From: Salminus brasiliensis
Lineage: Eukaryota > Chordata > Actinopteri > Characiformes > Bryconidae
Assembly: GCF_030463535.1 (NCBI RefSeq)
Contig: NC_132894.1
Location: forward strand, 30,513,125 to 30,577,124
Direction: 5' to 3'
DNA: 64,000 nucleotides
In this document: positions 38,007 to 63,516 of the stretch, piece by piece
Layout of the letters: the number at the start of each line of letters is the position of its first letter
Position numbering within the stretch: position 1 is the first letter of the stretch
Translations under genes and position numbers: made by a program
Notes under the pieces: generated by a model
The model's input: the letters and a program-made list of their open reading frames with translations, nothing else
Told to the model about the DNA's origin: nothing
Database searches by the model: none

Positions 38007-39826
38007 CCTATGCATGTCCTTTGGGCCTGTGTTTGCGACTCTGCAACTTTAAACTCTGTCAAAGCATCACCCTTGTTAGGCTTCAACCTTAGAATAAGCC
38101 TTGGGAACCTCTGCTCTAGTATACATGTCTTGTAAGTGGTTTAAATGCCAATATTTGGGATCATACCAATTTCATGTCTCAGCATCCCTTCTAGCCAGTG
38201 CTGCCGTGCTCCCGACAAGTTGATTGTTAGAGTTGGCCTACAGCTCTCCACCATCATCACAGCCTGGGACAGCAGCTCGTCAGAGAGGCACACCACCACC
38301 TTAAAATGAAGCCCAACAACAATTACAACACTGACATGACTTAGTGATGAAATTCATCCTGCATGTATGCATGCAACGTACAAGAGGAGAAACGCACACA
38401 CCTCACCCACACAGCCCTCTTTCTGTAAGTACTTGCGTGCTGTTGCCCACACTCGACTTTTTGGTAGGACAGTTCCACCTGTGACTTCTTCAAAGTTCTC
38501 GTAGGTGCCAAACTTCCTCAAAACACACTCCATAATGCCAACTGCCTGGAGGATGTAATAGAGTTTTCTCAGGTATTGAAGATTTACCATTTCTGGACTT
38601 TTTTCTTTAGGCCAGGACATTATCATCTTGACAAGCTTTACTCCAAGGTTTTTAATGATGAACTGTAACTCATTTAATATATATTTACATATATTTAATA
38701 TAAAATACATAAGACACCCCAATATATATTATTATTATACAGCCACATTTTTGGGCATATTAGGGCCTAATTTTTGCTTTACTACTTCTATTAACCAAAA
38801 TCTACATTTTTATGCTTTTCAATGAGTCAAACAAGCTATTTTAATTCTTCAATGAAAACCAGTTTTCTATTTAAACAAAAATAAATTATAAAAAAATACT
38901 ACAGTGAATGTAAAAGACAATTACAACACAAATCTGGTTGCTTTTTTTGGAACAATCCCTTATTTGCACTTATTTATGCATTTATGCTTATTATCCCTTA
39001 TTTATGCATCCCTTATTTACACTCATTTATACTGTAACAGTGTCTGATTGTGTGTGTGATTTGTACATAAACATACCTGGGAAAGAAAGAGACCTGAGCC
39101 TTCTTTATACTTCTCCAGTACACTGCTGGGCTCTGGGGTCATGTATTCAAACTGAGGCTCATACTTATAGTCTGACTGGAAAAAGACCTGGCGCTCCTGA
39201 TCGAGATTCGTGGGGCGCAGGGCCACTAGCAGACAAGGCCCGCGGGGGGTGGAAGGCGTGGGTAGTGGTGCAGCACCCATCCCTCTGGCGATGTGTGGTA
39301 AGGATGTAGCAGGCCGCATTTGTCCCCTTCCTGCTCTAGGGGGCGCTGTAGAGTTCATGGTGCAGGTGCTCTCGCTGCGGCGCATCCAGCCTCCAGGACC
39401 CAAGCTGGGGCTGGTCAGGCTTCGTACCGGAGGAGAGGGTGCACCACATCGCCACGGAGGCTGCAGGACCTTCCGTTCAGGCGGATGCTGATTGGCCCTA
39501 GGGCGCTGGGGTTTGATCTCCAGGCTCAGAGGCCTTCTGGCTTCCGTCTTCTTCACGGGTCCATCTAACGCTTCGGCTCCTCTGCTGCTCGTGCCCACTG
39601 CACACTTTGGCCTTTGCTCTGGCTGTGTATTGCCAGTGCAAGGCTTAGCTTGAGGCCCGTTGTGCAGTGGCCGGTCCCTTTGGGTGATGCTGCTGGTTCT
39701 GGCTCTGGCCCGAACAGGTTTGGGTTTTTCTGAATGGGCCTCTGTCTCTGGAACATCTAGGCCAGTAGCAGCCATGCCCTCCCCATTAGCCCGCTCCATA
39801 CAGTTCTCCCCCAGGTCCAGCACCAT
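33106..39826 (-). CDS. matcap1: Microtubule-associated tyrosine carboxypeptidase 1 (KIAA0895L)
   Basis: Six coding exons on the minus strand: 39826-39077, 38545-38402, 38299-38167, 34715-34410, 33459-33362 and 33267-33106 (TGA), giving 530 residues (human about 471). ATG 39826 is the first after an in-frame upstream TGA. The N-terminal third is basic, Pro-rich and poorly conserved. Then come LVALRPTNLDQERQVFFQSD, AVGIMECVLRKFGTYENFE, the metalloprotease motif HEIGTH (split by the 38166-34716 intron), NPTEEGLASLHSVLLRKQPF, CFSKDQVYLDGILRILRHR and a VSYEDVERLRP tail. The family removes the C-terminal tyrosine of alpha-tubulin. The two His of HEIGTH and a downstream Glu (NPTEEG) are the expected zinc ligands, and the Glu in HE is the base. 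Paralogue matcap2 (KIAA0895) is the alternative; the N-terminus and YKEGSGLF-type stretch fit matcap1 better. The largest intron (3.5 kb) is full of repeats. Confidence 0.94.
34124..34194. repeat. (TA)n microsatellite in matcap1 flank/intron
   Basis: A long TA tract lying between matcap1 exons 33459-33362 and 34715-34410. A second AT tract is at about 37967-38002 in the next intron. Confidence 0.9.
34890..35285. mobile_element. Non-autonomous repeat, family R2 copy 1
   Basis: Shares a block order with 37261-37640: GTGTGTTTTGGGCGTAACAT, AACCAATCAGCGTGTCAC, CCATTCCCTTTAAGAG, CACACCTCATTT(T/C)GAGACCACC and a final AAGCACTGTTG. It is non-coding. A partial third relative may be at 49165-49320. 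Transposon class uncertain. Confidence 0.55.
35291..35645 (+). mobile_element. 3' end of a non-LTR retrotransposon
   Basis: The plus strand from 35277 translates to THPLHRLLSLLPSGRRYSSI followed by NSFFPQAIRLLNS, the C-terminal end of many fish LINE ORF2 proteins, then a 3' region with GACTCAAAATTTATTGCACA. Everything upstream is missing. A 15-bp direct duplication makes IVDDSIVDDS. Confidence 0.55.
35820..36084. repeat. (ATA)n and spacer in matcap1 intron
   Basis: An (ATA)n tract lies at 35820-35848, then a TTTATATAGCAC motif common at fish repeat ends, and otherwise unremarkable sequence. Confidence 0.5.
36085..36392 (-). mobile_element. MITE-like repeat, second copy of the 131-650 family
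   Basis: Read on the minus strand it starts TACACTGTATGGACAAAAGT and shares the TTGGATGATCACCACCCCAC block with the first copy. The other end carries AATATTTGTGGACACCC inverted. The two ends resemble each other as inverted repeats. It is non-coding; 36393-37260 is unremarkable. Confidence 0.6.
37261..37640. mobile_element. Non-autonomous repeat, family R2 copy 2
   Basis: Same blocks in the same order as 34890-35285, including AACCAATCAGCGTGTCAC and CATTCCCTTTAAGAG. Here an AATTTTTTTTGTTTGCATTG stretch interrupts. Confidence 0.55.
37702..37829 (-). mobile_element. Short MITE, family R3 copy 1
   Basis: Inverted relative to copies at 40302-40452 and 49364-49498. The shared core reads, on its own strand, CCACCAGTTTGTACAGAAGT then CCTGTAGTTACTGA. 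The end is AAGGGGTTAA. Confidence 0.6.
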
Positions 39827-40301
39827 TGCAGCAAGCACGCCTCAGTCAAGCCCCACTGCTAACATGTCCACCAAAGAACAGATGCTGTGCCACTTCTGAA
39901 AGCTGATGGAAAAAGAGAGACACAGAAAACATCAGATTTTAATGCGAAATTATTTATTCATAATTTTATATCTGTTACTATAATTAATATCCGCTTAGCT
40001 GTGCTGAGATTTACGCATGGAGCGCTTAACATCTACGTTAATAAAAAAGTGGTTTATTAAAGGGGAATTCCACCAAATTTTCAAACACTTTGTAGATTTT
40101 GACTGTTGAGGTCTAAGCAAGTCATTCAGTGCTTTTGGCATGAAGCGATGCATTGTCGAGAAACTTACTGACTAGCTTCTGTACAGCGGTACTGACAGGA
40201 ACCAGGGGTTGTGATGACTAAAACAAACCATATAGTCAATTCAATCCAATGTTTTTTTTGTGGCTGTTTTTTTTTTTTCCTTTTTTATTAAATACGTATG
40301 T

Positions 40302-40502: not shown

Positions 40503-40803
40503 ACGATACGTATTCGTATTCGTATTCGTCACTGTACAGTGTGGACTGTACAGCGAAATGTGTCCTCCGCATTTAACCCATCTGGTAGTGAACACACACT
40601 CACACACACACACACGTGTTAGGGGCAGTGAGTACACACACACACCCAGAGCGGTGGGCAGCCAACTCCAGCGCCCGGGGAGCAGAGAGGGTAAAGGGCC
40701 TTGCTCAAGGGCCCAACAGTGGCAGCTTGCCGAGCCCGGGAATCGAACCCACAACCCTGTTATCGATATCCCGGCGCTCTAACCGCTGAGCCACCACTGC
40801 CCC
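40503..40803 (-). mobile_element. tRNA-derived SINE (V-SINE/HE1-like), minus strand
   Basis: On the minus strand it starts GGGGCAGTGGTGGCTCAGCG (box A region), has box B GGGTTCGATTCCCGG, then CAAGCTGCCACTGTTGGGCC and GAGCAAGGCCCTTTACCCTC, and ends in a short GAATAC repeat. The same element is at 42850-43131 on the plus strand. The assignment to the V-SINE/HE1 type comes from memory of fish SINEs. Confidence 0.75.
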
Positions 40804-40905: not shown

Positions 40906-41130
40906 ATGGTTGGTGTGGCGCAATAGATAACACCACTACCTGCCAGTGAGCTACCACACCATGCGGGAGACTGGGGTTCGATTCCTGGTCTGGGTGACTG
41001 TGCTGCGCTACACCAATAAGAGTCCTTGGGCAAGACTCCTAATGCTACACTGGCCCACATCTGAAATACGAGTAACGTTGTAAGTCGCTCTGGATAAGAG
41101 CGTCAGCTAAATGCCATAAATGTAAATGTA
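40906..41130 (+). mobile_element. tRNA-derived SINE with an L2-type 3' tail
   Basis: The head has box A (GTGTGGCGCAATAGATAAC) and box B (GGGGTTCGATTCCTGG). The last 51 bp (41078-41128) match the 3' tail of the L2 LINE at 63464-63514 at 48 of 51 positions by eye, ending in ATGTAAATG. This is the classic arrangement of a SINE that borrows the LINE's reverse transcriptase. Confidence 0.8.
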
Positions 41131-41999: not shown

Positions 42000-42301
42000 C
42001 CGGGGTTTCCTGCTAAAGCGAAAGGACGGACGAGACCAGCAGCCGCTCTTTGTTCAGCCGCTGCTCACATTCCGTGAATCGCGCGGCAGGTTCCGGTGTG
42101 GAGGGAAATAACGGGGCAGATAACGGATCTGTCCGTGATTTGGGAGGAGAGCATTGGTGAGCGATCAGCGCGCGCCGGTGACTGCGCTGGAACAAATGAC
42201 GCGCTGGCGCAGCCATGACACAAGCGCGTAAGGACGTTCCCCCCTGCGCGAGCGAGCACGCACGGACCCCTCCTCCTCCTCCTCCTCCTCCTCCTCCTCC
42301 T
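42000..42301 (-). promoter_or_regulatory. CpG-rich candidate promoter of matcap1
   Basis: This short island-like stretch has many CpGs (GATCAGCGCGCGCCGGTGAC, GACGCGCTGGCGCAGCC) and ends in (CCT)n at 42269-42301. It lies 2.2 kb upstream of the matcap1 ATG on its 5' side and 350 bp before the U1-like gene, so it could serve either. Assigned by position and composition only. Confidence 0.35.
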
Positions 42302-42652
42302 ATTTTTCTCGTTTTCCCGTTATCCACCCGTCCCCTTCCAACCCCCCCACCAGTGTCCCGGAAACGCCTCTTGCTTCACCACGATTGGCTGGTAGTCTAT
42401 CATCCCGCCTTCTCCCTGATTACGCTCAGCCAAACGGTCCAAAAGTTGCACTCAGGACATGCTCATCCAAACAGGCCAATGTGTCTCTGTCTTCTACAGG
42501 AAATGTGACACAAGCACGTACAGACTTCTTTGTCTACCTTTTTTTTTCCCTCTTAGCTTTTCCTGACCTGTATTCTAGCAGGTGTTGCTTAATCCGTTGT
42601 GATTGGCTCTTCATATCTCATAGCTCATCTCCTGTGCTAGGATTGGCTGGTA

Positions 42653-42816
42653 GTACTTACCCGGCAGGGGAGATACCAAGATCAGAAAGGTGGTTCACCC
42701 AGGGTGAGGCTCAGCCATTGCACTCCGGTTGTGCTGACCCCTGCGAATTCCCCAAATGTGGGAATCTCGACTGCATGATTTCTGGTAGTGGGGGGCTGCG
42801 TTCGCGCTCTACCCTG
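42653..42816 (+). ncRNA. U1 spliceosomal RNA gene, variant or pseudogene
   Basis: This 164-nt stretch has exactly the canonical U1 length and aligns to vertebrate U1 without indels. I count 18 substitutions against human U1 (from memory), several of which are normal fish changes. The 5' arm reads GTACTTACCCGG (canonical ATACTTACCTGG), changing U1 position 10 from U to C. The U1A-binding loop ATTGCACTCC is intact. The U1-70K loop is altered (GATCAGAAAG against GATCANGAAG). The Sm site GATTTCTGG still fits RAUUUNUGR. Stem III carries paired changes at positions 95 and 113. I recognise no snRNA proximal element upstream and no 3' box downstream, where AT-rich DNA leads into a SINE. U1 base-pairs with 5' splice sites in the nucleus. 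Either a variant U1 gene or a recent pseudogene. Confidence 0.88.
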
Positions 42817-42849
42817 ATTTTTATTTTTTAATTAATTTTTTTAATTAAG

Positions 42850-43131
42850 TGGGCAGTGGTGGCTCAGCAGTTAGGACGCCGGGCTATCAATAACAGGGTT
42901 GTGGGTTTGATTCCCGGGCTCGGCAAGCTGCCACTGTTGGGCCCTTGAGCAAGGCCCTTCACCCTCTCTGCTCCCCGAGTGCTGGAGTTGGCTGCCTACC
43001 GCTCTGGGTGTGTGTGTACTCACTGCCCCTAGTTCACAAGTGTGTGTGTGTGTGTTCACTACCACAGATGGGTTAAATGTGGAGGACACATTTTGCTGTA
43101 CAGTGTACCGTGACAAATACGTGCACCTTTA
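42850..43131 (+). mobile_element. tRNA-derived SINE (V-SINE/HE1-like), plus strand
   Basis: Same family as 40503-40803 but opposite orientation: GGGCAGTGGTGGCTCAGCAG, box B GGGTTTGATTCCCGGG and CAAGCTGCCACTGTTGGGCC. It starts 33 bp after the U1-like sequence. Confidence 0.75.
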
Positions 43132-44085
43132 CCTTTTAATCCCGCCCTCTACCTTATAATGATGATTTAATCAGACTAATATTACCCTACAAAATTTTTT
43201 ATATTAAAAACACTGATTTATAAAATATTGTACACATCTACACTACCATTATTTCACAGATGGCATGAAAAGCAGTGTTTTGTAATATATGAAAAAGTAA
43301 ATTAAGTAAATTAAGTGAATTACATCATCTTGTATCTTTTACGCCACTGTTGGGTGGAAGGGGTCTAAATTACTTGGTTTCGACGCCCCTTATTAAGTTA
43401 TTGCTCTGAAAATGCTTTAATGTTGGTGTGAAATATGCCATAAACACTGCTAGAATGCCATTTCTTTGATGGATTATCTATAAAACGGGTGTCCGAACTT
43501 GAATGCCTGAATATGACATAAAACCTGTTTTGCCAAGGAACGGTAACTAAACAGAGGGTGGATAGCCCATTAAACATGAATTATTAAGGGCCAGGAGCCA
43601 ATCAGACGGCCACAAATTATGAATGAGGCGCAGAGAGAGGTCAAGCGCAGATGTGTGTTTGAGTTTATCTTTGCATTTCTGAACATGAGGGCAAAAGTAT
43701 TTTATTGCTGTGACTCACATTCATTCACATAAGTCAGCAAATCATTCACATAAGTCACAAGTATTACTCACTAGAGCAATTACTGGTGCTTTCAGGAGCG
43801 AATGCAAAACATGAGATCTGTGTAAGATCCCAGAGCACTGGACCTGGAGTTATCTGAGGCTTCTGCTTGGACTTTGAAGGCCCCAACACCATCGGCACAT
43901 CCTGCAGAGGATGCAAAATTCGACATTAGGAGTCATTGAGACCCAGAATTTCATTATTGCGAGACTCTACTGAACGATATTGTGCACACATGATAGACTA
44001 GGTCACAGGATAGTGATTAATTCATTATGTTTAATTCATAATTCATGAATGAAGATGTTAAACTATAGCCATTAAAAACAGACTT
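43132..44085. other. Spacer between U1-like gene and nqo1 cluster
   Basis: No gene is recognised. The segment 43655-43691 resembles 50112-50148 (about 29 of 36 positions). An exon-like open stretch on the minus strand (about 43915-43785, after CCTCTGCAG) has no recognised product. Confidence 0.35.
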
Positions 44086-45012: not shown

Positions 45013-48000
45013 CTATGAAGGTTTCCCTGATACTAAATATTGGTCCTGTGCGGCAGTCTTGGTCTGGTTGTCTGGAGGGAGTGGTTTGCCGAGGTGCTGC
45101 CCTGTGGTGAGGCCATAGGACTTAGAGCGATACGCCTCCTTCACTTCAGGCCTCACTCTGAACCCTCCCTGGATGCTGAGGTCAAAGAGCTCAGAAGGAG
45201 CAAAGGCCACATGCTGTTCTTCCAGCAGGCCTTTCAGCCTGGCCTGCCAGGCCTCTAACATGGCTGTTCTCTCGGATGGGGAAGCACGTGCAGGACCCCA
45301 GAAGATGTGAGGAGCCAGAACCTGGAAACCACAGAAGTGCAGAACGCCGTTCTGCAGGGCGACACAAACAGTTAGTTTATTACTCTAATAGACTTAATGA
45401 CTTCTCTCACATACAAAATGACTGGTCTGACCTGTAAGGGCCAAAGCATCACATTGATGTCTCCATTAATGCCATCAGGTTGGTACTTGGATTCCATTGC
45501 ACCAGTCGTGAAAGACAGCATAGCCTTTTTATCCTATAGAGAGAATCGAGCAAAATATGCCTTGAACCAATTCTCCCAACCATTAAAAACTGACATTATA
45601 ATTATTGTGGAGGTTAATCTCTCTCATAGCAATCACCAACACTGATCCTGGAGAGCTACCTTTCTGCAGACATCTAATTACTACCTTCAGGACTACCTGA
45701 TTAGATGAATGAGGTGTTAGATTTAGGATAAAGATGAGATCCGCAGGTAAATAGATCTTCAGAAGGAGTGCTGGTCATTATTGCTCTGCAGTGGCCATAG
45801 ACTGTACTATCAAACACATGCAAACGAAGAAACGTGACATATCAGACCTTGCACAAGCCATGGTCATATGTGTTCTGCAGAGTGTAGGCGAAGCCTCGGG
45901 TTAGCACTCGCTCTATCCAGCCTTTCATTATAGCAGGGACAGAGAACCAGTAGAGTGGGAACTGCATAAGACATTCAAATATATACAGTAAATTAGAAAA
46001 ACACAGTAAAAAACACACCCATTATTAATTACTCATGCCAGGAAAACAAATGAAATACATACATGATTTACACGCACATGAGGCACTTAGGTGGGTCAGT
46101 GTGAAAGACAGAAATTAAAGCAGCAGTATGCAAAAATGTATATTTCTTGCTCCTGGGCCCAGGAAGTATCAGAAAGTGTAAGCCACCAATGAGGTTTACA
46201 CACTTTACAAATGCATTTCTGGACAAGCTGAGAGAGATCCATAACCCTCACTGAAAGTTAAAGGAGCATGTGGACTGAGGTAGAGGAATATTGCAGGGGG
46301 TTACGCAGCATTATGCAGTTCTCGCATGTGTGCAAGTGTGCAAGTAGCAGCATGCTGAGTTTAGAGTAGCATCAATAGGGACTATTACAGGTCTGGGAAG
46401 CATCACAACGATTTTAAAGCGGTTATTTTAAGGTAATAATGCTAAATAATGTGGATTTAAAGGTGATGAGAGAGAATGAGTGAGATATGAACGGAAGATC
46501 GAGGCAATAATCTAAATATCGAACCTGAAAGATGATGAGATCAGCCTGCGCCACCTTGCGATGTTCTGCTTTGATGTCATCACTTAGTCTGTCCTCCTTC
46601 CAGGCAATGTAGGCCTCCTCAGCATAGAGGAAGTGTTCTGGGTTTTTCAGGTTACCTGGACAGGTGTATCAGAGAGAAAGGAAAATGTGCTCGATTAAAG
46701 TGACGCGATTAAAAATGCATAAAGTAGACATAAAGTATTTGAGGGTAAAAAGTAATTTGTAAAATTGGCAGAATGGTGGGCAGTTTGCTTTTACACCAAT
46801 ATAAATTTGACTGGATATTTTAATAAAAATAACACTAATATTTAGTGGAACGATTAGCAGCAAGCTTCTTGAATCTCTATCACAACTGCAGCTGAGTAAC
46901 AGCGTAATTTAGAGTAAAGTGCGAAACATAATTAAGTATGATAAAGGGGGGGGGGGGGGCAGCGAAGTGAGCAGGTGCTAGCACGAGTGCTAGGCTAACA
47001 GTTAACCCTACCAGAGCAAGAGATCCAGAGAGGACAGCAACAGTATCCGATTTAAATCAGTCACATCATTATTTGTTTTACAGTGCTAAGCTATGCAAGG
47101 CTATGCTATGTGGCTCCTGTGAGCTGCCTTGTTGCTGTAAATCAGCCAAATTTAGAGCAGAAGTCATCTTCCGTTACAATAGGAAAAGCATGTTTAATTC
47201 TGAGGCAAAATAACAGGGTGGTAAATAGGCTTGTAGAAGCACATTTGAGCATTTTTCAACACAACCAAAGTCACATACTTACTGTTTTTAAGATATCTAA
47301 GATATTTCCCACTGCACTGGTTTTGGTCAAAAACAAAGCTATGGAAGCCACTGCCCACAGAACCACCATACAGACCTTTGAAATCTGCTGGTGTTGCTGA
47401 AGGTTGGAAGTTCATGGCGTAGAGGTCAGACACAATGACTTTATAGCCCTGTGCAGTGAGCGTCTGCACAGCCACATCCTTCGCAGCGGCGTTGAACGAG
47501 CGTGGACTGTGATGGGCGTAGACGATCAACACAGTCTTTTGCGCTGAAACGTATAAGAAACAAATGGAAATCAGTGAAGAGAGTAAGAGGTACAGCAATA
47601 TTTAATTTATTGTAGAATTAGATTTTAAAACAAAAGTAATTTAATATCAATGAATATCAATGAAATATCACTTAATGTCAATTAAAAAAACTTTTGCGGA
47701 TCTAAACCTGGCTAGTGCACCCCCTAGAGGTCAAACATTCAGTTCTGCTGCGTTTGTAACTCCACCTCAATTGATGATCACATAGTAAGGATTTTTCCCT
47801 GTATCATATAGTGGTGGGCGGCATCCGTCCAGCAGAAAAGCCTCTTGGCCTTGTTTTCTTTGGCCGCTTTCCACCCTGCCCACACCACACTAAGCCCTGC
47901 CTCTGCACGCTTGTTATCGTAGGCGTAACGTGCAGTTTTTTTTAAATGGCTACATTCACATTACCAGGCTGAAGTGACAAAGATCTAAATTTTTTCAGGG

Positions 48001-52996: not shown

Positions 52997-55900
52997 CTAG
53001 GGAACAGCCTTGGTCTGGTTGTTTGGAGGGAGCGGTTTACCGAGATGCTGCCCTGTGGTGAGGCCATAGGGTTCAGAGGCACGAGCCTCTTTCGCCTCAG
53101 GCCGCAGTCGGAACCCTGCCTGGAAACTGAGGTCGAAGAGCCCAGTGGGAGCAAAGGTCAGAGGTTTCTCGTTCATCAGGCCTTTTAGCCTGGTCTGCCA
53201 GGCCTCTAATAAGGCTTTTCTCGCAGCTGGAGGGGTGTGTGCTATACTCCAGAAGATCTGGGGAGCCAGAACCTGAAAGCCACAGAAGCGCAGAACTCCG
53301 TTCTGCATCAGGACACAGTTGATTATTTTAATTTGTGGTGATTCAGTTTCAGATTCAGATTCAGCTAAAAAAATCCAGTAATTTCACCTGTAAGGGAAAC
53401 AGCATAACATTGATGTCTCCATTGACGCCATCAGGGAGGTACATAGACTCTGTGCCTCCAGTAGTGAATGACAGCATAGCCTTTTTATCCTGTGGGGTGA
53501 ATTGTGCATATGTTTATTAGACTACTGCAAATTTACCATTTAAAGGTTCCATCAGATGAACACACTAGTGGGAAACATGATATTGATTTATCTATTTGAC
53601 TTTTCTGTCTTTAAGGTACACAGACCTTCCAGTTAATAGACTGACCTAACAGGTAATAGGTGGAAGTCCATGACTGGGATCAGATATTGCATAGACAACA
53701 TAAGGAAATAATGGATGCTTCCAAACATGCTACGTGGCTTGTGGTTGGTTGATTCAAAGATGGGGGCCAAATTAAACGACAGCTCATGAAGGTGGATTCA
53801 GCATTGCACAAAGCTTGCAACTGACAGTACACTCAAGGACTAAGGACCAAATAGAGACAACAACTGCACTAAACACGAATAAGACACTGGCGAAGACACT
53901 GATGAACAGGAACAAAGACAAAGGAACTGACAGGACAGGAAGGTGGTGACTGAGACTGGATCTGTTCAAGGAAAACGAACCAGAGTCATTCAAGGGTTAA
54001 GGCCTTTATAATCTGAACCAGGTGTGCTAGGGCAGACTGCAGATTTTCAGGGTAGTGGATCCACAGAAACAGGGCTGAGAAACACTGATCAATAGAACTG
54101 GTAAGCACACATTCAAAGAACCTTGGTATCTCTTTAGTTATGTAAGTTTGCTGATGTGTGTTTCTGACCTTAAAGATGCCATTGTCATACATGTTCTGCA
54201 GAGTAAAGGCAAATCCTTGAGTTAGTACTCGATCAAACCAGCCTTTCATTATACCTGGGACATTGAACCAGTACATCGGGAACTGCAGGAAATAAGAAAA
54301 ACAATCATTAGTAATTTTGTGATGCTAAAATACAGTCTTTATTCTCATGGCAGAAATATATACTTTATTTTACATCTTAAAAAAACATTAAGTGTACTTT
54401 TACATGTTGTCCTACTCCAAGCTCTATAGGCTTGAAAGCCAACTACCAATCAGGTAATTCAGGTGATGTGCATCTCAGTAATGAGAAGGGGTGTGGTCTA
54501 ATGACATCAACACCCTATATAAGGTGTGCTTAATTATTAGGCAACTTCCTTTCCTTTGGCAAAATGGGTCAGAAGAGAGATTTAACGGAGTGTGAGATGT
54601 CTTGCAGAGGGATGCAGCAGTTTTGAAATTGCCAAACTTTTGAAGCGTGATCACCGAACAATCAAGCGGTTCATGGCAGATAGTCAACAGGGTGGCAAGA
54701 AATGTGTTGGGAAAAAAAAGCGCAAAATAACTGCCCATGAATTGAGGAAAATCAAGCGTGAAGCTGCCAAGATGCCATTTGCCACCAGTTTTGCCATTTT
54801 TCAGAGCTGCAATGTTACTGGAGTATCAAAAAGCACAAGGTGTGCGATACTCGGGGACATGGCCAAGATAAGGAAGGCTGAAAAACGACCACCTTTGAAC
54901 AAGAAACATAAGAGAAAACGTCAAGACTGGGCCAAGAAATATCTCAAGACTGATTTTTCTAAGGTTTTATGGACTGATGAAATGCGAGTGACTCTTGTTG
55001 GGCCAGATGGATGGGCCCGAGGCTGGATCAGTGAATGGCAGAGAGCTCCACTCCGACTCAGACGCCAGCAAGGTGGAGGTGGGGTACTGGTATGGGCTGG
55101 TATCATCAAAGATGAACTCGTGGGACCTTTTCGGGTTGAGGATGGAGTGAAGCTCAACTCTCAGACCTACTGCCAGTTTCTGGAAGACACCTTCTTCAAG
55201 CAGTGGTACAGAAAGAAGTCGGTATCGTTCAAGAAAACCATGATTTTCATGCAGGACAATGCTCCATCACATGCATCCAAATACTCCACAGCATGGCTGG
55301 CCAGTAAGGGTCTAAAAGAAGAAAAAATGATGACATGGCCCCCTTGTTCACCGGATCTGAACCCCATAGAGAACCTGTGGTCCCTGTGAGATCTACAGGG
55401 AGGGAAAACAGTACACCTGTCTGAACAGTGTCTGGGAGGCTGTGGTGTCTGTTGCACGCAATGTTTATCGTAAACAGATCAAGCAACTGACAGAATCTAT
55501 GGATGGAAGGCTTTTGAGTGTCATGGTAAAGAAAGATGGCTATATTGGTCACTGATTTGTTTTTGGTTTTGTTTTTGAATGTCAGAAATGTTTATTCCTA
55601 AATTGTGTGTTGTTATATTGGTTTACCTGGTGAAAATAAACAAGTGAGATGGGTATATATTTGTTTTTCATTAAGTTGCCTAATAATTCTGCACAGTAAT
55701 AGTTACCTGCACAAACGGATATCCTCCTAAGATCTAAATCTAAAAAAAAAAAAAAAAAGAAAAAACACTCCAACTTCCAAAAATATTAAGCTTTGATATT
55801 TGAGCCATTTGGGTTGATTGAGAACATAGTTGTTCAATAATAAAAATAATCCTCTCAAATACAACTTGACTAATAATTCTGCACACACTGTATAAACAAC

Positions 55901-58900
55901 CATTGTAACTACATTGTAGGGTTTACATTGTGTGAACATCTTATGATGAATAGACCAATAGCATGGATGCTACGTTACTTTTAATTAATAAAAAAAAGGC
56001 CATTGTAGACATACAATTTATTTCATAAGCAACAATCTGAGTGAAGTGCATGAGATATGTTGGGGAAAAAAAGGCAATGAAAACATGAGGAACATGGAGG
56101 GAACTATTAAACTACCTCACCTGAAAGATAATGAGATCAGCCTGCGACACCTTGTTGTGTTCTGCCTTGATGTCATCACTCAGTCTGTCCTCCTTCCAGG
56201 CAATACAGGCCTCATCATTATAGACAAAGTGCTCAGGATCCTTCAGCTCACCTGGGCAGGCATAACAAGCACATAAGGACAAGGACATAAAGCACAAGGA
56301 CATTTTTTTTTTCATATTAGGGGTAGGTAATAACACATTATTTTATTGTGACATACAATGAGCATATTGTGAATATCACTGGTGCTTAAAAAACACTGAT
56401 CAATTGCATGTTTCCATACAAAGAGTGTAATTAGTCCTGTTTAACTGGATAAAGTAGAACATTTTGAATAGAAATCACTGTATTAAGTATAGGACAGTAT
56501 TTGGGCAGCGATTCTGCTGCAGTTCTAGTGCATTTTATCTTCTGTCTTCAAATATTGTGATATAATATTTTTACCATATCAGTTATCTCTATTTCATGTA
56601 TTCTTTTTTTTACATCTTATTCTTTGACATTTTTAAACATCTTACACATTTGTCAGGATAATCTAGAATATGACCTGCTATGCGATTTATTCACAAAAAT
56701 ATCATATAATTATATTTATTATTACTACATTTCCTGCAATTATTAAAAAAGATACTATTTAAAAAGATGTTTACTTGCAGTCAGACTTTGGCATTTAACA
56801 GTGATGGCCCTGGTATATTTGGAAATTGTACTTTGCACTCCCCCACAGTAATTGCTTTATATGTTGGCGGGCATGCAATTGACAGTCCCAAAAAATTCTG
56901 TCCCAGTCCTAAAAGCATGTAATTTTATTTTATGGCTTTCATAACATCACTGAAAACAGGACACTAACTCCTACAGGAGGTGTGGTGTTTGGTGGTGCAA
57001 GGTTCAGTGTCAGGGTTGGTTTTATGATAGCTTTTTCTTAGTAACTGAATAAAACTTTTTTTTTTCTCAACCGGTTCCTTCAATTTGGTGGATCCAGGCC
57101 TGTACAAGGCATGTCTGGCCTCTGAAAAATTCTATCACAGTGCCCAATTTAGGTAAAGTACTCTAAAATACTATGGTACAATGTATTTATTTTTAGGAGC
57201 CATATTTTCTTGTCTTTTATTTTTTTAAACACACTGTCTGACCTGATGCAGAATAGGTTACTACCTTAAAGCAGCATTGTGCAAGAATTGGTATTTGTTG
57301 CACCTGGGCCAGGGTATGAGCACCCCTTCATGGACAGCTGTACACATGCATTTGTTGACAAGAAAGTATGTGGACTCAGACGGCAAAATAATATCAGCAA
57401 GAGTTCACACATATACAGCTTCACCACAGTGCAGTTCCATAGGGCAGAAGTGGTGTTCTGGAATAGAGTGGCAATGACCGAGATGCCAGTCTCTTTATTA
57501 CAGTACCTGTCCACTTGTACTTGTTTTCGACGCATTTGGCCATGCCCGATCTCTAGCCTCACCGTGTGTGGGCGTGTCTGTGACGCGTCTGTATGCAAAT
57601 GAATAGAATTAACAATCTGGGAGTAGGCGATCTTATTTTTAGGATTTTCAATTCTTATATATTTTATTCTGGAAATCCTGGAGCTGCCGTTATCAGTTTT
57701 CCTTCAGGTTTTAAAAGTGTTTGTTCGGTGTGTGATGCTCGTTTGACGTACTCAGCCATACGTCGCCTGTGTTCTGCTGAACTTTAAGGCTGCTCTTGGC
57801 GCAATGCAACCCGTCATGCATGCTGCAGCTCTTTCCATTGAAATAAACAGAATGTGGTGAGGTGAAGTGGTAAGCGGACCAGTGCCGTTACAGTCAGTGG
57901 AGCCTCAACATGATTTTGAAGGTATTTTAAGGTAACATTTCTCTATAGAAAGCTGTCTATGGTATAAACCATTCCTGGTCATGACAATGGAGTGAAACTA
58001 CTGGCGCTCGATTTTGCAAGCACAGGACAGAACCACCATACAGACCCTTAATATCTGCTGCTGTTGCTGAGGGAAGAAAGTTCATGGCGTAGAGGTCAGA
58101 CACAATGACTTTATAGCCTTGTGCGGTGAACGTCTGCACAGCAGCATCCTTTGCAGCTGCATTAAACGAGGTTGGACTCTGATGGGCGTAGACGATCAAC
58201 ACAGTCTTTTGCGCTGAAATGTATAAGAAACAAACAGAATTCAGAGATTAAAAAATCTGCTCATTTGTTTTTGCCCCTTGAATGAAAAGAGCTTCAGAGA
58301 TGGTTTCAAATCTTTACATGACTTCATAATTCTCCTCAAATGAAAGAGCTGCACGAGGAGTCCCATGCTCCCCCCACTTGTTTTCTTTTCCGTTCCCCAG
58401 CTCCCAGGAGAGGTGAAACCCATACTGTTTCTACTGTAGGGAGGTTACACCCTGTCAACAACCAACAAGCCATGCCTCAGCAATTTAGTCATGCAAAAAA
58501 TGGTCTACAGTAACTATGCGTCGCACTTGGCCATAAGCTTTCTACTGCAAAACAAAAGCAAGCAACAACCTGAAACAGAACTGAAGATTATATCTTTACA
58601 AGTGTAAAATATGTGGCACGGGAAGACTGTCTGATAATCACAACAGATAAATCAGAATCTGAACCTTTAAAAATGCTTAAGGCCTAAAGGTTTGTGCTAG
58701 TAGTTCTCACCATTTGTAGCCACTGCAATTACTGCAATGCCTAGAAGACCATTGACTTTTACATTATTGATGTTTCTAGCATCACTTCAGGACCAAATAA
58801 TAGTGTTGCACTGATACCGATACCATACACACAGTATCGGTATTGGCAATAGAGAACACAGAGTCATTTGCAATTATCTCTAAATAATCTGTAAATAATT

Positions 58901-61547: not shown

Positions 61548-63516
61548 ATGACCTCCACTCCTATCAGTCTCTTCTCTCCAGGTTTAGAACGGAAGTTGCT
61601 GCCGCTAAAGCATCTTACTACAGGGGGAAATTGGAATCATCTGCATCTGACCCACGCAACGTCTTCACCATCTTCTCCTCTCTCCTCAACCCTCCTACTC
61701 CCCCACCTCCCACTACCCTGTCTGCAGAAGAAAAGGTTGACAAGATCCGCCGATCTTTCCTCCCTACCTCTACCCCCCTCTCTAGGCCCTGCCCTCCTCC
61801 TCCCTCTTCTCTGACCTGCTTCTCTCCTCTTTCCACAGATGACCTCCTACATCTTCTCACCTCCAATAATCCTACCACCTGTCCACTAGACCCTGTTCCA
61901 TCCCCTCTGTTCCAAACAATCGCTCCAAACCTCCTTCCTTTCATCTCCTTTGTCATAAACAGCTCTTTGTTGTCAGGTCATGTACCATCTGCCTTCAAGT
62001 CTGCCAGAGTTGTGCCTATCCTAAAGAAACCAACTCTGGACAGCTTGGACATAGGCAACTACAGACCTATCTCTCTTTCCTCCCAAAGATTCTCGAACGT
62101 TCTGTCTACAACCAACTGTCTCTCTTTCTCACTCAGAACAATCTACAGGACTCTAACCAGTCTGGCTTCAAAGCTGCACACTCTACTGAAACTGCTCTCA
62201 TTGCAGTTACAGAGAAGCTCCATGCAGCTAAAACTGCCAGACTGTCCTCAGTTCTGATCCTTCTTGACCTCTCCGCAGCCTTTGACACAGTGGACCACAA
62301 GATCCTCCTGTCTATCCTTGCCGGCCTTGGAATTACCGGCTCTGCATGGCGATGGTTTGCATCGTACCTGCAGGGACGCTCATACCAGGTAACATGGCAG
62401 GGGGACACGTCTGCTCCTTGTAGTCTCTCCACTGGCGTTCCACAAGGCTCGGTTCTTGGTCCTCTTCTTTTCTCACTCTACACTTGCTCTCTTACCACTG
62501 TTACGCCGATGACACTCAACTCATGCTCTCTTTCCCACCGTCTGACACACAGGTTTCTGCCCGTATCTCAGCATGCCTCGCCGACGTCTCTTCTTGGATG
62601 GCGGCTCACCACCTCAAACTCAACCCCAGCAAGACGGAGCTGCTGTACATTCCGGGAACTGCTGGACCAAAAAACGATCTTGCCATCACCTTTGAGAACT
62701 CGCTGGTCACTCCTTCTACAGAAGCTCGAAGCCTTGGTGTAGTCATGGATGATCAGTTATCGTTCTCAAGTCATGTTGCAAATGGAACTCGGTCCTGCAG
62801 ATTTCTCTTGTACAACATCCGGAGAATTCGACCCTTCCTCTCTGGAGAGGCCACCCAGGTGCTTGTTCAGTCTCTTGTCACTTCCAGACTTGACTACTGC
62901 AACTCTCTTCTGGCTGGTCTTCCTCTGCGCACCATTAGGCCCCTGCAACTCATCCAGAATGCAGCAGCACGGGTCGTCTTCAATGTCCCTAAATTCAGCC
63001 ATGTCACTCCACTGCTGCATTCTCTTCACTGGCTTCCTGTAGCTGCTGCCCGCATCAGATTCAAAACCCTGATGCTGGCCTACAAAGCCAAGAACGGACC
63101 AGCCCCTCCATACTTGATGGCAATGGTCAAAAGCCCATCTGCACTTAGAGCCCTTCAAGCTTCAAGTACGGCTCGGCTCGACCCGCCATCCCTCAAAGTC
63201 CGCGGAAGACAAGCGTCCAGGCTCTTTTCTGTCCTGCACCAAAGTGGTGGAACGAGCTTCCCCTGGGTGTCCTAACGGCCGAGTCGCTCGCTGTCTTCAA
63301 ACGCAGACTGAAGAACCACCTCTTCCGAGAGTACTTGGATAATTAGAGTACTATGGTCACCTTATTGTCTTGTGTTTAGTAATGTCTAAGCTTAGAGGTA
63401 TCCTTTGAATTATTGGTCTATTCTAACTAGCTAGGGCTTTTCTTGGGTAAATAGCAAAGCACTTTGTAAGTCGCTCTGGATAAGAGCATCTGCTAAATGC
63501 CGTAAATGTAAATGAA
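61548..63516 (+). mobile_element. 5'-truncated L2-clade LINE with broken reverse transcriptase
   Basis: Three overlapping frames read as one ORF2: 61535-62257 (VVPILKKPTLDSLDIGNYRP), 62290-62742 (GVPQGSVLGPLLFSLY) and 62484-63275 (SYHCYADDTQLMLSF, LDYCNSLLAGLP). YADD at 62502-62513 is the reverse transcriptase active site. Frame shifts occur near 62080 and 62480, and another near 63250. The endonuclease part is missing. The 3' tail (63464-63514) ends in ATGTAAATG. It is dead but could show what mobilised the SINE at 40906. Confidence 0.88.

Follow-up and report, generated by a model that had tools for sequence, protein, structure and literature searches.

A complete U1 snRNA copy in Salminus brasiliensis is very probably the head of a U1-SINE chimeric retroposon

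The U1 copy and the U1 genes of the genome

Does a complete U1 snRNA sequence with an altered 5' splice-site arm represent a divergent gene or a pseudogene? The question is raised by a copy at positions 42653-42816 (+) of a 64,000-nucleotide stretch of Salminus brasiliensis DNA (the window), which belongs to contig C17 of the genome searched. The copy matches the U1 family (Rfam RF00003) with 144 bits (E 1.2e-36; gathering threshold 69.5) and spans the whole model (positions 1-166). Against L002, a U1 gene from an array on C9 of the same genome, it is collinear over 164 nt without a gap and identical at 155/164 positions, in agreement with the initial annotation, which had described a full-length, indel-free U1. 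The nine differences are A1G, U10C, U27A, A33G, G34A, C77U, A125G, A143G and C159A. The U to C change at position 10 is real, and the base pairing by which C10 had been said to favour G at -2 of the 5' splice site is correct. Both the U1A loop (nt 65-74) and the Sm heptad (AUUUCUG, with A125G immediately 5' of it) are the same as in L002, and the U1-70K loop deviates by A33G and G34A; the initial annotation had likewise called the U1A loop intact, the Sm site within its consensus and the U1-70K loop deviant.

The U1 family search of the 1.07-Gb genome scored 42 of 20178 first-look candidates, so that copy numbers given here are lower bounds. Alignment to the genome's U1 copies was a check proposed with the initial annotation; the scoring of 40 of 415 candidates yielded no relative of the window U1 closer than ordinary U1 copies (95%). 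The U1 loci read numbered 48, of which 7 were in duplicate; these correspond to 41 distinct places, namely the best-scoring copies and the window. A PSE core, TTTACCGTCT, is located at most 90 bp away in 38 of the 41, all of them on C9, and is absent from L009 (on C6), L010 (on C27) and the window copy. Nine of the 38 PSE-bearing genes carry G62/C77 and 29 carry A62/U77 (one of them with A45G too); the U1 of L009 is identical to the A62/U77 array class. The window U1 has G62/U77 (window positions 42714 and 42729). Since the PSE of two array genes (L011 and L012) agrees with the others at only 15/20 bases, the arrays hold at least two putative promoter types. Exact U1 pattern scans of viral and genome contig collections gave no matches.

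Many departures of the window copy from human U1 are ordinary among the U1 genes of this genome, and differences such as GCGAAUUCCCC...GGGAAUCUC are normal here as well as in other fish. A compensated change in stem-loop III (GAAUUCCC...GGGAAUC) was considered as covariation indicative of function. It also occurs in the genome's own U1 genes; the zebrafish equivalent is CTGCGAAT/CTGCGAAC in the relevant part of PMC3706591, and the U1 primers given in PMC7291238 show the same difference from human as ordinary in fish. Being ordinary both in fish and in the genome's own genes, this change is not evidence of function and was discarded as such.

Promoter signals and genomic neighbourhood

One reading of the copy is that of a divergent, expressed U1 gene in which C10 shifts 5' splice-site choice to G at -2. 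The full length, the ungapped alignment and the intact U1A loop and Sm heptad all speak for it, and human U1 variants whose 5' arm is altered have been described that influence splicing, according to a part of PMC13172311. Against it stands the missing PSE. Within the 110 bp upstream of the copy (42543-42652) the genome's PSE is matched at no more than 10/20 bases, as compared with 20/20 in 13 and 15/20 in 2 of the 15 array-gene loci used as controls; random 110-bp stretches reach a mean of 9.5/20 and a maximum of 13/20. The window U1 thus does not have the PSE of a functional vertebrate-type U1 gene, and the upstream search that had been recommended leaves intact the earlier statement that no snRNA promoter elements are recognised. 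The best match is equally low (9-11/20) in 21 of 21 chimeras.

Neither an octamer (within 700 bp) nor a strict 3' box, using the consensus strings for the octamer (DSE) and 3' box given in a section of PMC5493778, was found at the window U1. Because the same strings match none of the 38 distinct array genes, their absence was dropped as evidence for a pseudogene, and only the PSE is counted as promoter evidence.

A CpG-rich stretch and CCAAT-type motifs (together 42001-42652) separate the U1 copy from a KIAA0895-like gene, and a divergent transcript starting in this region would have the copy in sense orientation. The CpG-rich part extends over 42001-42300 (GC 0.63, CpG o/e 1.05), and what we take to be inverted CCAAT motifs (GATTGGCT) are found at 42601 and 42641. 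The coding ORF of the KIAA0895-like gene (39023-39841, minus strand; PDB chain 7z6s_C, E 1e-25; no Pfam family), presumably of MATCAP1 type, is on the opposite strand to the U1 copy and directed away from it. Such an upstream region, divergent from the neighbouring gene, is a further point in favour of expression. A tandem duplication of the upstream region was rejected, as the repeats concerned, 42216/42506 and 42383/42641, are only 20 and 14 nt long and the latter is mostly the common CCAAT-type motif.

Elsewhere in the window there are UnaL2-type LINE 3' elements (Rfam RF00436) at 63453-63506 and 41067-41120, the former just 3' of a reverse-transcriptase-like ORF (62424-63275; RVT_1 slightly below cut-off), and a Tc1/mariner-like transposase ORF (DDE_3) at 54586-55389 (+). 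Repeated exons of flavodoxin fold are found on the minus strand at 45013-45384, 47194-47601, 52997-53383, 53986-54324 and 57957-58247. Flavodoxin_2 is above cut-off in 3 of these 5 stretches, weak in 45013-45384 and not detected in 52997-53383; the exons resemble a tandem series of NAD(P)H quinone oxidoreductase genes, which we take to be of the NQO1 kind.

Recurrence of the U1-SINE junction

The sequence downstream of the U1 copy begins with a T-rich linker of 34 nt (42817-42850, +; 68% T), which starts with ATTTT; so do the 3' flanks read for the array genes at C9:14-Mb. It is followed in the same orientation by a SINE (42851-43136, +), which differs from the SINE of the young chimera L009 by 22 substitutions in 287 aligned positions (7.7%). 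On the basis of a B-box match (42904-42914) we take this SINE to be tRNA-type; ARAGORN found no tRNA gene in it, and a literature text search with its letters found no paper. The composite (42653-43136) therefore has the structure of an snRNA-retroposon chimera, that is, a sense snRNA joined at its 3' side to a SINE.

The same order, U1 followed by ATTTTTTTTATTTTTATTTTTTTT and then the SINE, is present in L009, and a genome-wide search for the junction was therefore carried out. The pattern CCCTGATTTTT-N5-35-GGGCAGTGG gave 8 matches and none for the reversed control, all 8 being U1-SINE junctions including that of the window. A pattern of the U1 3' end and the SINE head, CTCTCCCCTG-N0-30-GGGCAGTGG, gave 25 matches, again with none for the reversed control; U1 sequence is present in 22 of the 25 (strongly deleted in L077 and L079), and the other three (L070, L080, L085) are chance matches. 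TTCGCGCTCTCCCCTGB matched four times, at two U1-SINE loci, one U1 with a LINE-like tail and one non-U1 sequence. Whereas both junction patterns impose the order and orientation of U1 before SINE, an internal U1 pattern based on G62/U77 leaves them free, with no neighbour required. It gave 12 matches, the window included; none of the 12 has a PSE (best 9-12/20), and the 3' partner is this same SINE in 9 and a LINE-like tail in 3. Altogether there are 32 distinct U1-SINE loci (the 22, the window, L051 and L056, and seven from the G62/U77 pattern) and 3 U1 loci with a LINE-like tail. The SINE attached to the window U1, with its counterparts at 31 other loci, is a further argument against an expressed gene.

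In L010 (the same locus as L060 and L097), L086 and L087 a PSE-less U1 is joined to a tail of about 50 nt, GGGAATTTCCCC...AATAAAGGAC..., which is a second retroposon partner and probably a LINE 3' end.

It might be supposed that U1 first arrived here through DNA duplication or simple retroposition, and that a SINE later inserted independently in its 3' flank. No target-site duplication (TSD) is visible around the composite, and a second copy of the SINE is present in the window at 40521-40802, both of which would suit separate insertions. This explanation is nevertheless very unlikely given the recurrence of the junction (22 of 25 pattern matches, none with the control) and the spacing, since the SINE head follows U1 after 5-36 nt of T-rich, variable linker in the 25 junction-pattern chimeras. 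Moreover, truncation at the 5' or 3' end or an internal deletion is seen in some U1 heads, and in some chimeras (e.g., L088, L093, L094) a 3'-truncated U1 is joined directly to SINE sequence, in L093 at an internal point.

Another possibility is a SINE family with a U1 head, in which the composite spreads as a unit. Amplified SINE families with snRNA heads, SINEU, were reportedly described in crocodilians (Kojima 2015), and the window chimera resembles them in that U1 or U2 sequence heads a SINE-like element. The 32 loci are in keeping with such a family, as is an identical linker, ATTTTTTAG, common to L081, L082 and L083, which hints at secondary spread or at a common U1 3' end. However, linkers and the breakpoints in U1 and SINE are for the most part different between loci, so that, unlike in SINEU, the junctions mostly look like separate events. 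Apart from C77U and G62A, the substitutions common to at least 3 of 21 heads are largely C-to-T or G-to-A, and recurrent decay can thus explain them. In addition, a tRNA-type internal promoter would not transcribe a U1 located upstream of it. Propagation as a family is therefore improbable.

The G62/U77 state characterises 12 copies, each attached to a retroposon, and is absent from the 38 distinct genes with a promoter that were read. The chimeras may thus preserve an older state of the U1 genes. C77U of the window copy is probably parental, in which case the U1 template would have carried U77.

Age and decay of the two halves

Divergence was compared between U1 and SINE in 21 of 28 candidates, those in which each half has 80 or more aligned nt and the U1 alignment extends to nt 164 (L061, L066, L070, L077, L079, L080 and L085 were excluded). 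The two values rise together (Spearman 0.83, p 3e-6), which argues that the halves were inserted together and counts once more against a separate SINE insertion. At the window, divergence is 4.9% for U1 (8/163, against L002) and 7.7% for the SINE (against that of L009). The correlation across the 21 loci and the recurrence of the junction indicate that both parts were inserted in one event.

The TSD at the window copy is a 1-nt match. Over 13 chimeras there is a weak excess, with a mean suffix match of 3.15 against 2.51 nt and 2.35% of shuffles as high; one of the 13, L065, contributes 7 nt in a TTTATTT stretch. The small TSD at the window is not decisive, because short TSDs of 1-9 bp are given for L2 chimeras (72.5% of 40 platypus chimeras) in the relevant section of PMC4476161.

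Of 7 changes in the window U1 (nt 1 and C77U left out), four are on strongly conserved positions, which make up 70 of the 164 (Fisher p 0.46), and in nine other full-length, ungapped chimeras the figure is 19 of 33 (Fisher p 0.11). The changes in the window U1 thus show no avoidance of conserved sites. Five of the 70 strongly conserved positions are changed, another point against an expressed gene. Two base pairs are newly broken, as random change would give; 28% of random copies with 8 changes have no more non-pairs than the window U1, and this too counts against expression. On the other side, the energy of the U1 architecture (-38.8 kcal/mol) is slightly better than the mean of such random copies (-34.5, sd 6.1), a point against the pseudogene reading.

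Nor are the changes shared. None of the 20 other chimeras, of which 16 have heads reaching nt 10 and 17 have heads reaching nt 27-34, carries U10C, U27A, A33G, A125G, A143G or C159A; G34A is present in 3 and C77U in 15 of the 20. Other than these two, the changes are likewise not shared by the 40 scored relatives. Together with the missing PSE and the attached SINE, this makes a divergent expressed U1 gene extremely unlikely.

The feature in the window is thus very probably a pseudogene, the head of a U1-SINE chimeric retroposon, in view of its structure, its recurrence, the missing PSE, the matched ages of the halves and a U1 half without signs of constraint. The initial annotation had left a choice between a divergent U1 gene and a young pseudogene; the pseudogene part is upheld by the lack of a PSE and of any relative closer than ordinary U1 copies among those scored, and by the junction to the SINE, and the gene part is very unlikely. 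The altered 5' splice-site arm is no sign of function; nothing found here takes it beyond neutral decay, and it most likely results from drift.

Origin of the chimeras

The enzyme, the order of events and whether the U1 RNA was tailed or a precursor are inferences. A LINE reverse transcriptase would copy the SINE RNA at a nicked target and, on reaching its 5' end, switch templates to a U1 RNA, which it would enter at the 3' end and copy to the first nucleotides. Alternatively, U1 and SINE RNAs might be ligated before reverse transcription. Either route would give a promoterless U1, a short T-rich linker and the SINE, all in one orientation. The changes in the 70K loop and U10C would then arise after insertion by neutral mutation. 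The truncated, deleted and internally joined U1 heads fit template switching, and RNA ligation is also possible; both have been proposed for snRNA chimeras (in parts of PMC4476161 and PMC13174262).

The U1 template may sometimes have carried precursor 3' nucleotides. The linkers of L084 (ATTTTCTCG followed by GGG) and L061 (ATTTCAT followed by G) match array-gene 3' flanks, and this continuation into the flank suggests that pre-U1 served as template in both. A human U1 variant with a change in the Sm site shows a high level of uridylation, and changes of this kind reportedly lead to degradation (in the portion of PMC7328512 on this variant). By analogy only, a uridylated variant U1 is a conceivable source of U-tailed U1.

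Relation to known snRNA chimeras

Chimeras of snRNAs with LINEs or SINEs are an established kind, and the U6 version is known in mammals, platypus and Anolis, as far as the sections of PMC4476161 and PMC13174262 on these elements go. As in the window, U6/LINE-1 and other such chimeras have a sense snRNA on the 5' side, joined by its 3' end to the LINE or SINE. In human, U6 dominates, and the section of PMC4476161 concerned reports no U1/L1 template-switch chimera among 33 U1 sequences; a passage in PMC13174262 states that L1 chimeras with U1-U6, and hence with U1, are known. Here, unlike in human U6/LINE-1, the partner is U1. A U6-end pattern had no matches, but this comparison is weaker than the count suggests, as the pattern fixed 13 bases before the gap (from a U6 end that we assumed) against 10 for U1.

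U6 chimeras with L2, RTE and SINEs have been described in platypus and Anolis (in section 10 of PMC4476161, which spans marsupials to amphibians and not fish). Among these, U6-Mon-1 of platypus and U6-AnolisSINE2 also join an snRNA to a SINE; their SINEs are thought to be mobilised by an L2 LINE, and the platypus chimeras have short TSDs. The window chimera differs in having U1 in place of U6. Human variant U1 genes (vU1) resemble the window copy in that their U1 bodies are altered in the 5' arm and the 70K loop; in contrast to the window copy with its missing PSE, they possess a recognisable DSE, PSE and 3' box (in the vU1 section of PMC5493778).

Among the literature matches listed, as far as their text extends, no report of U1-SINE chimeras in fish was found. 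A 2017 review excepts teleosts from the groups with snRNA pseudogenes (a statement in PMC5493778). This exception is too strong, because U1 pseudogenes in Nile tilapia are cited in a passage of PMC4696792.

For the window, a candidate splicing-specificity gene becomes a decayed retroposon, and this explains the intact look of its U1. As to the fish lineage, we tentatively propose that U1, in a precursor form with a 3' extension and perhaps with added uridines, may take the place that U6 has in mammals as the second template to which a SINE-mobilising LINE reverse transcriptase repeatedly turns, that a few chimeras may re-spread as U1-headed SINEs, and that the chimeras would preserve a G62/U77 state absent from the 38 promoter-bearing genes. 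With these loci, snRNA retro-chimeras are now found in a fish, as against the teleost exception made in that part of PMC5493778. The dozens of junctions of differing age in this genome allow one to ask whether LINE enzymes take mature or precursor U1, and why U1 is used here and U6 in mammals.
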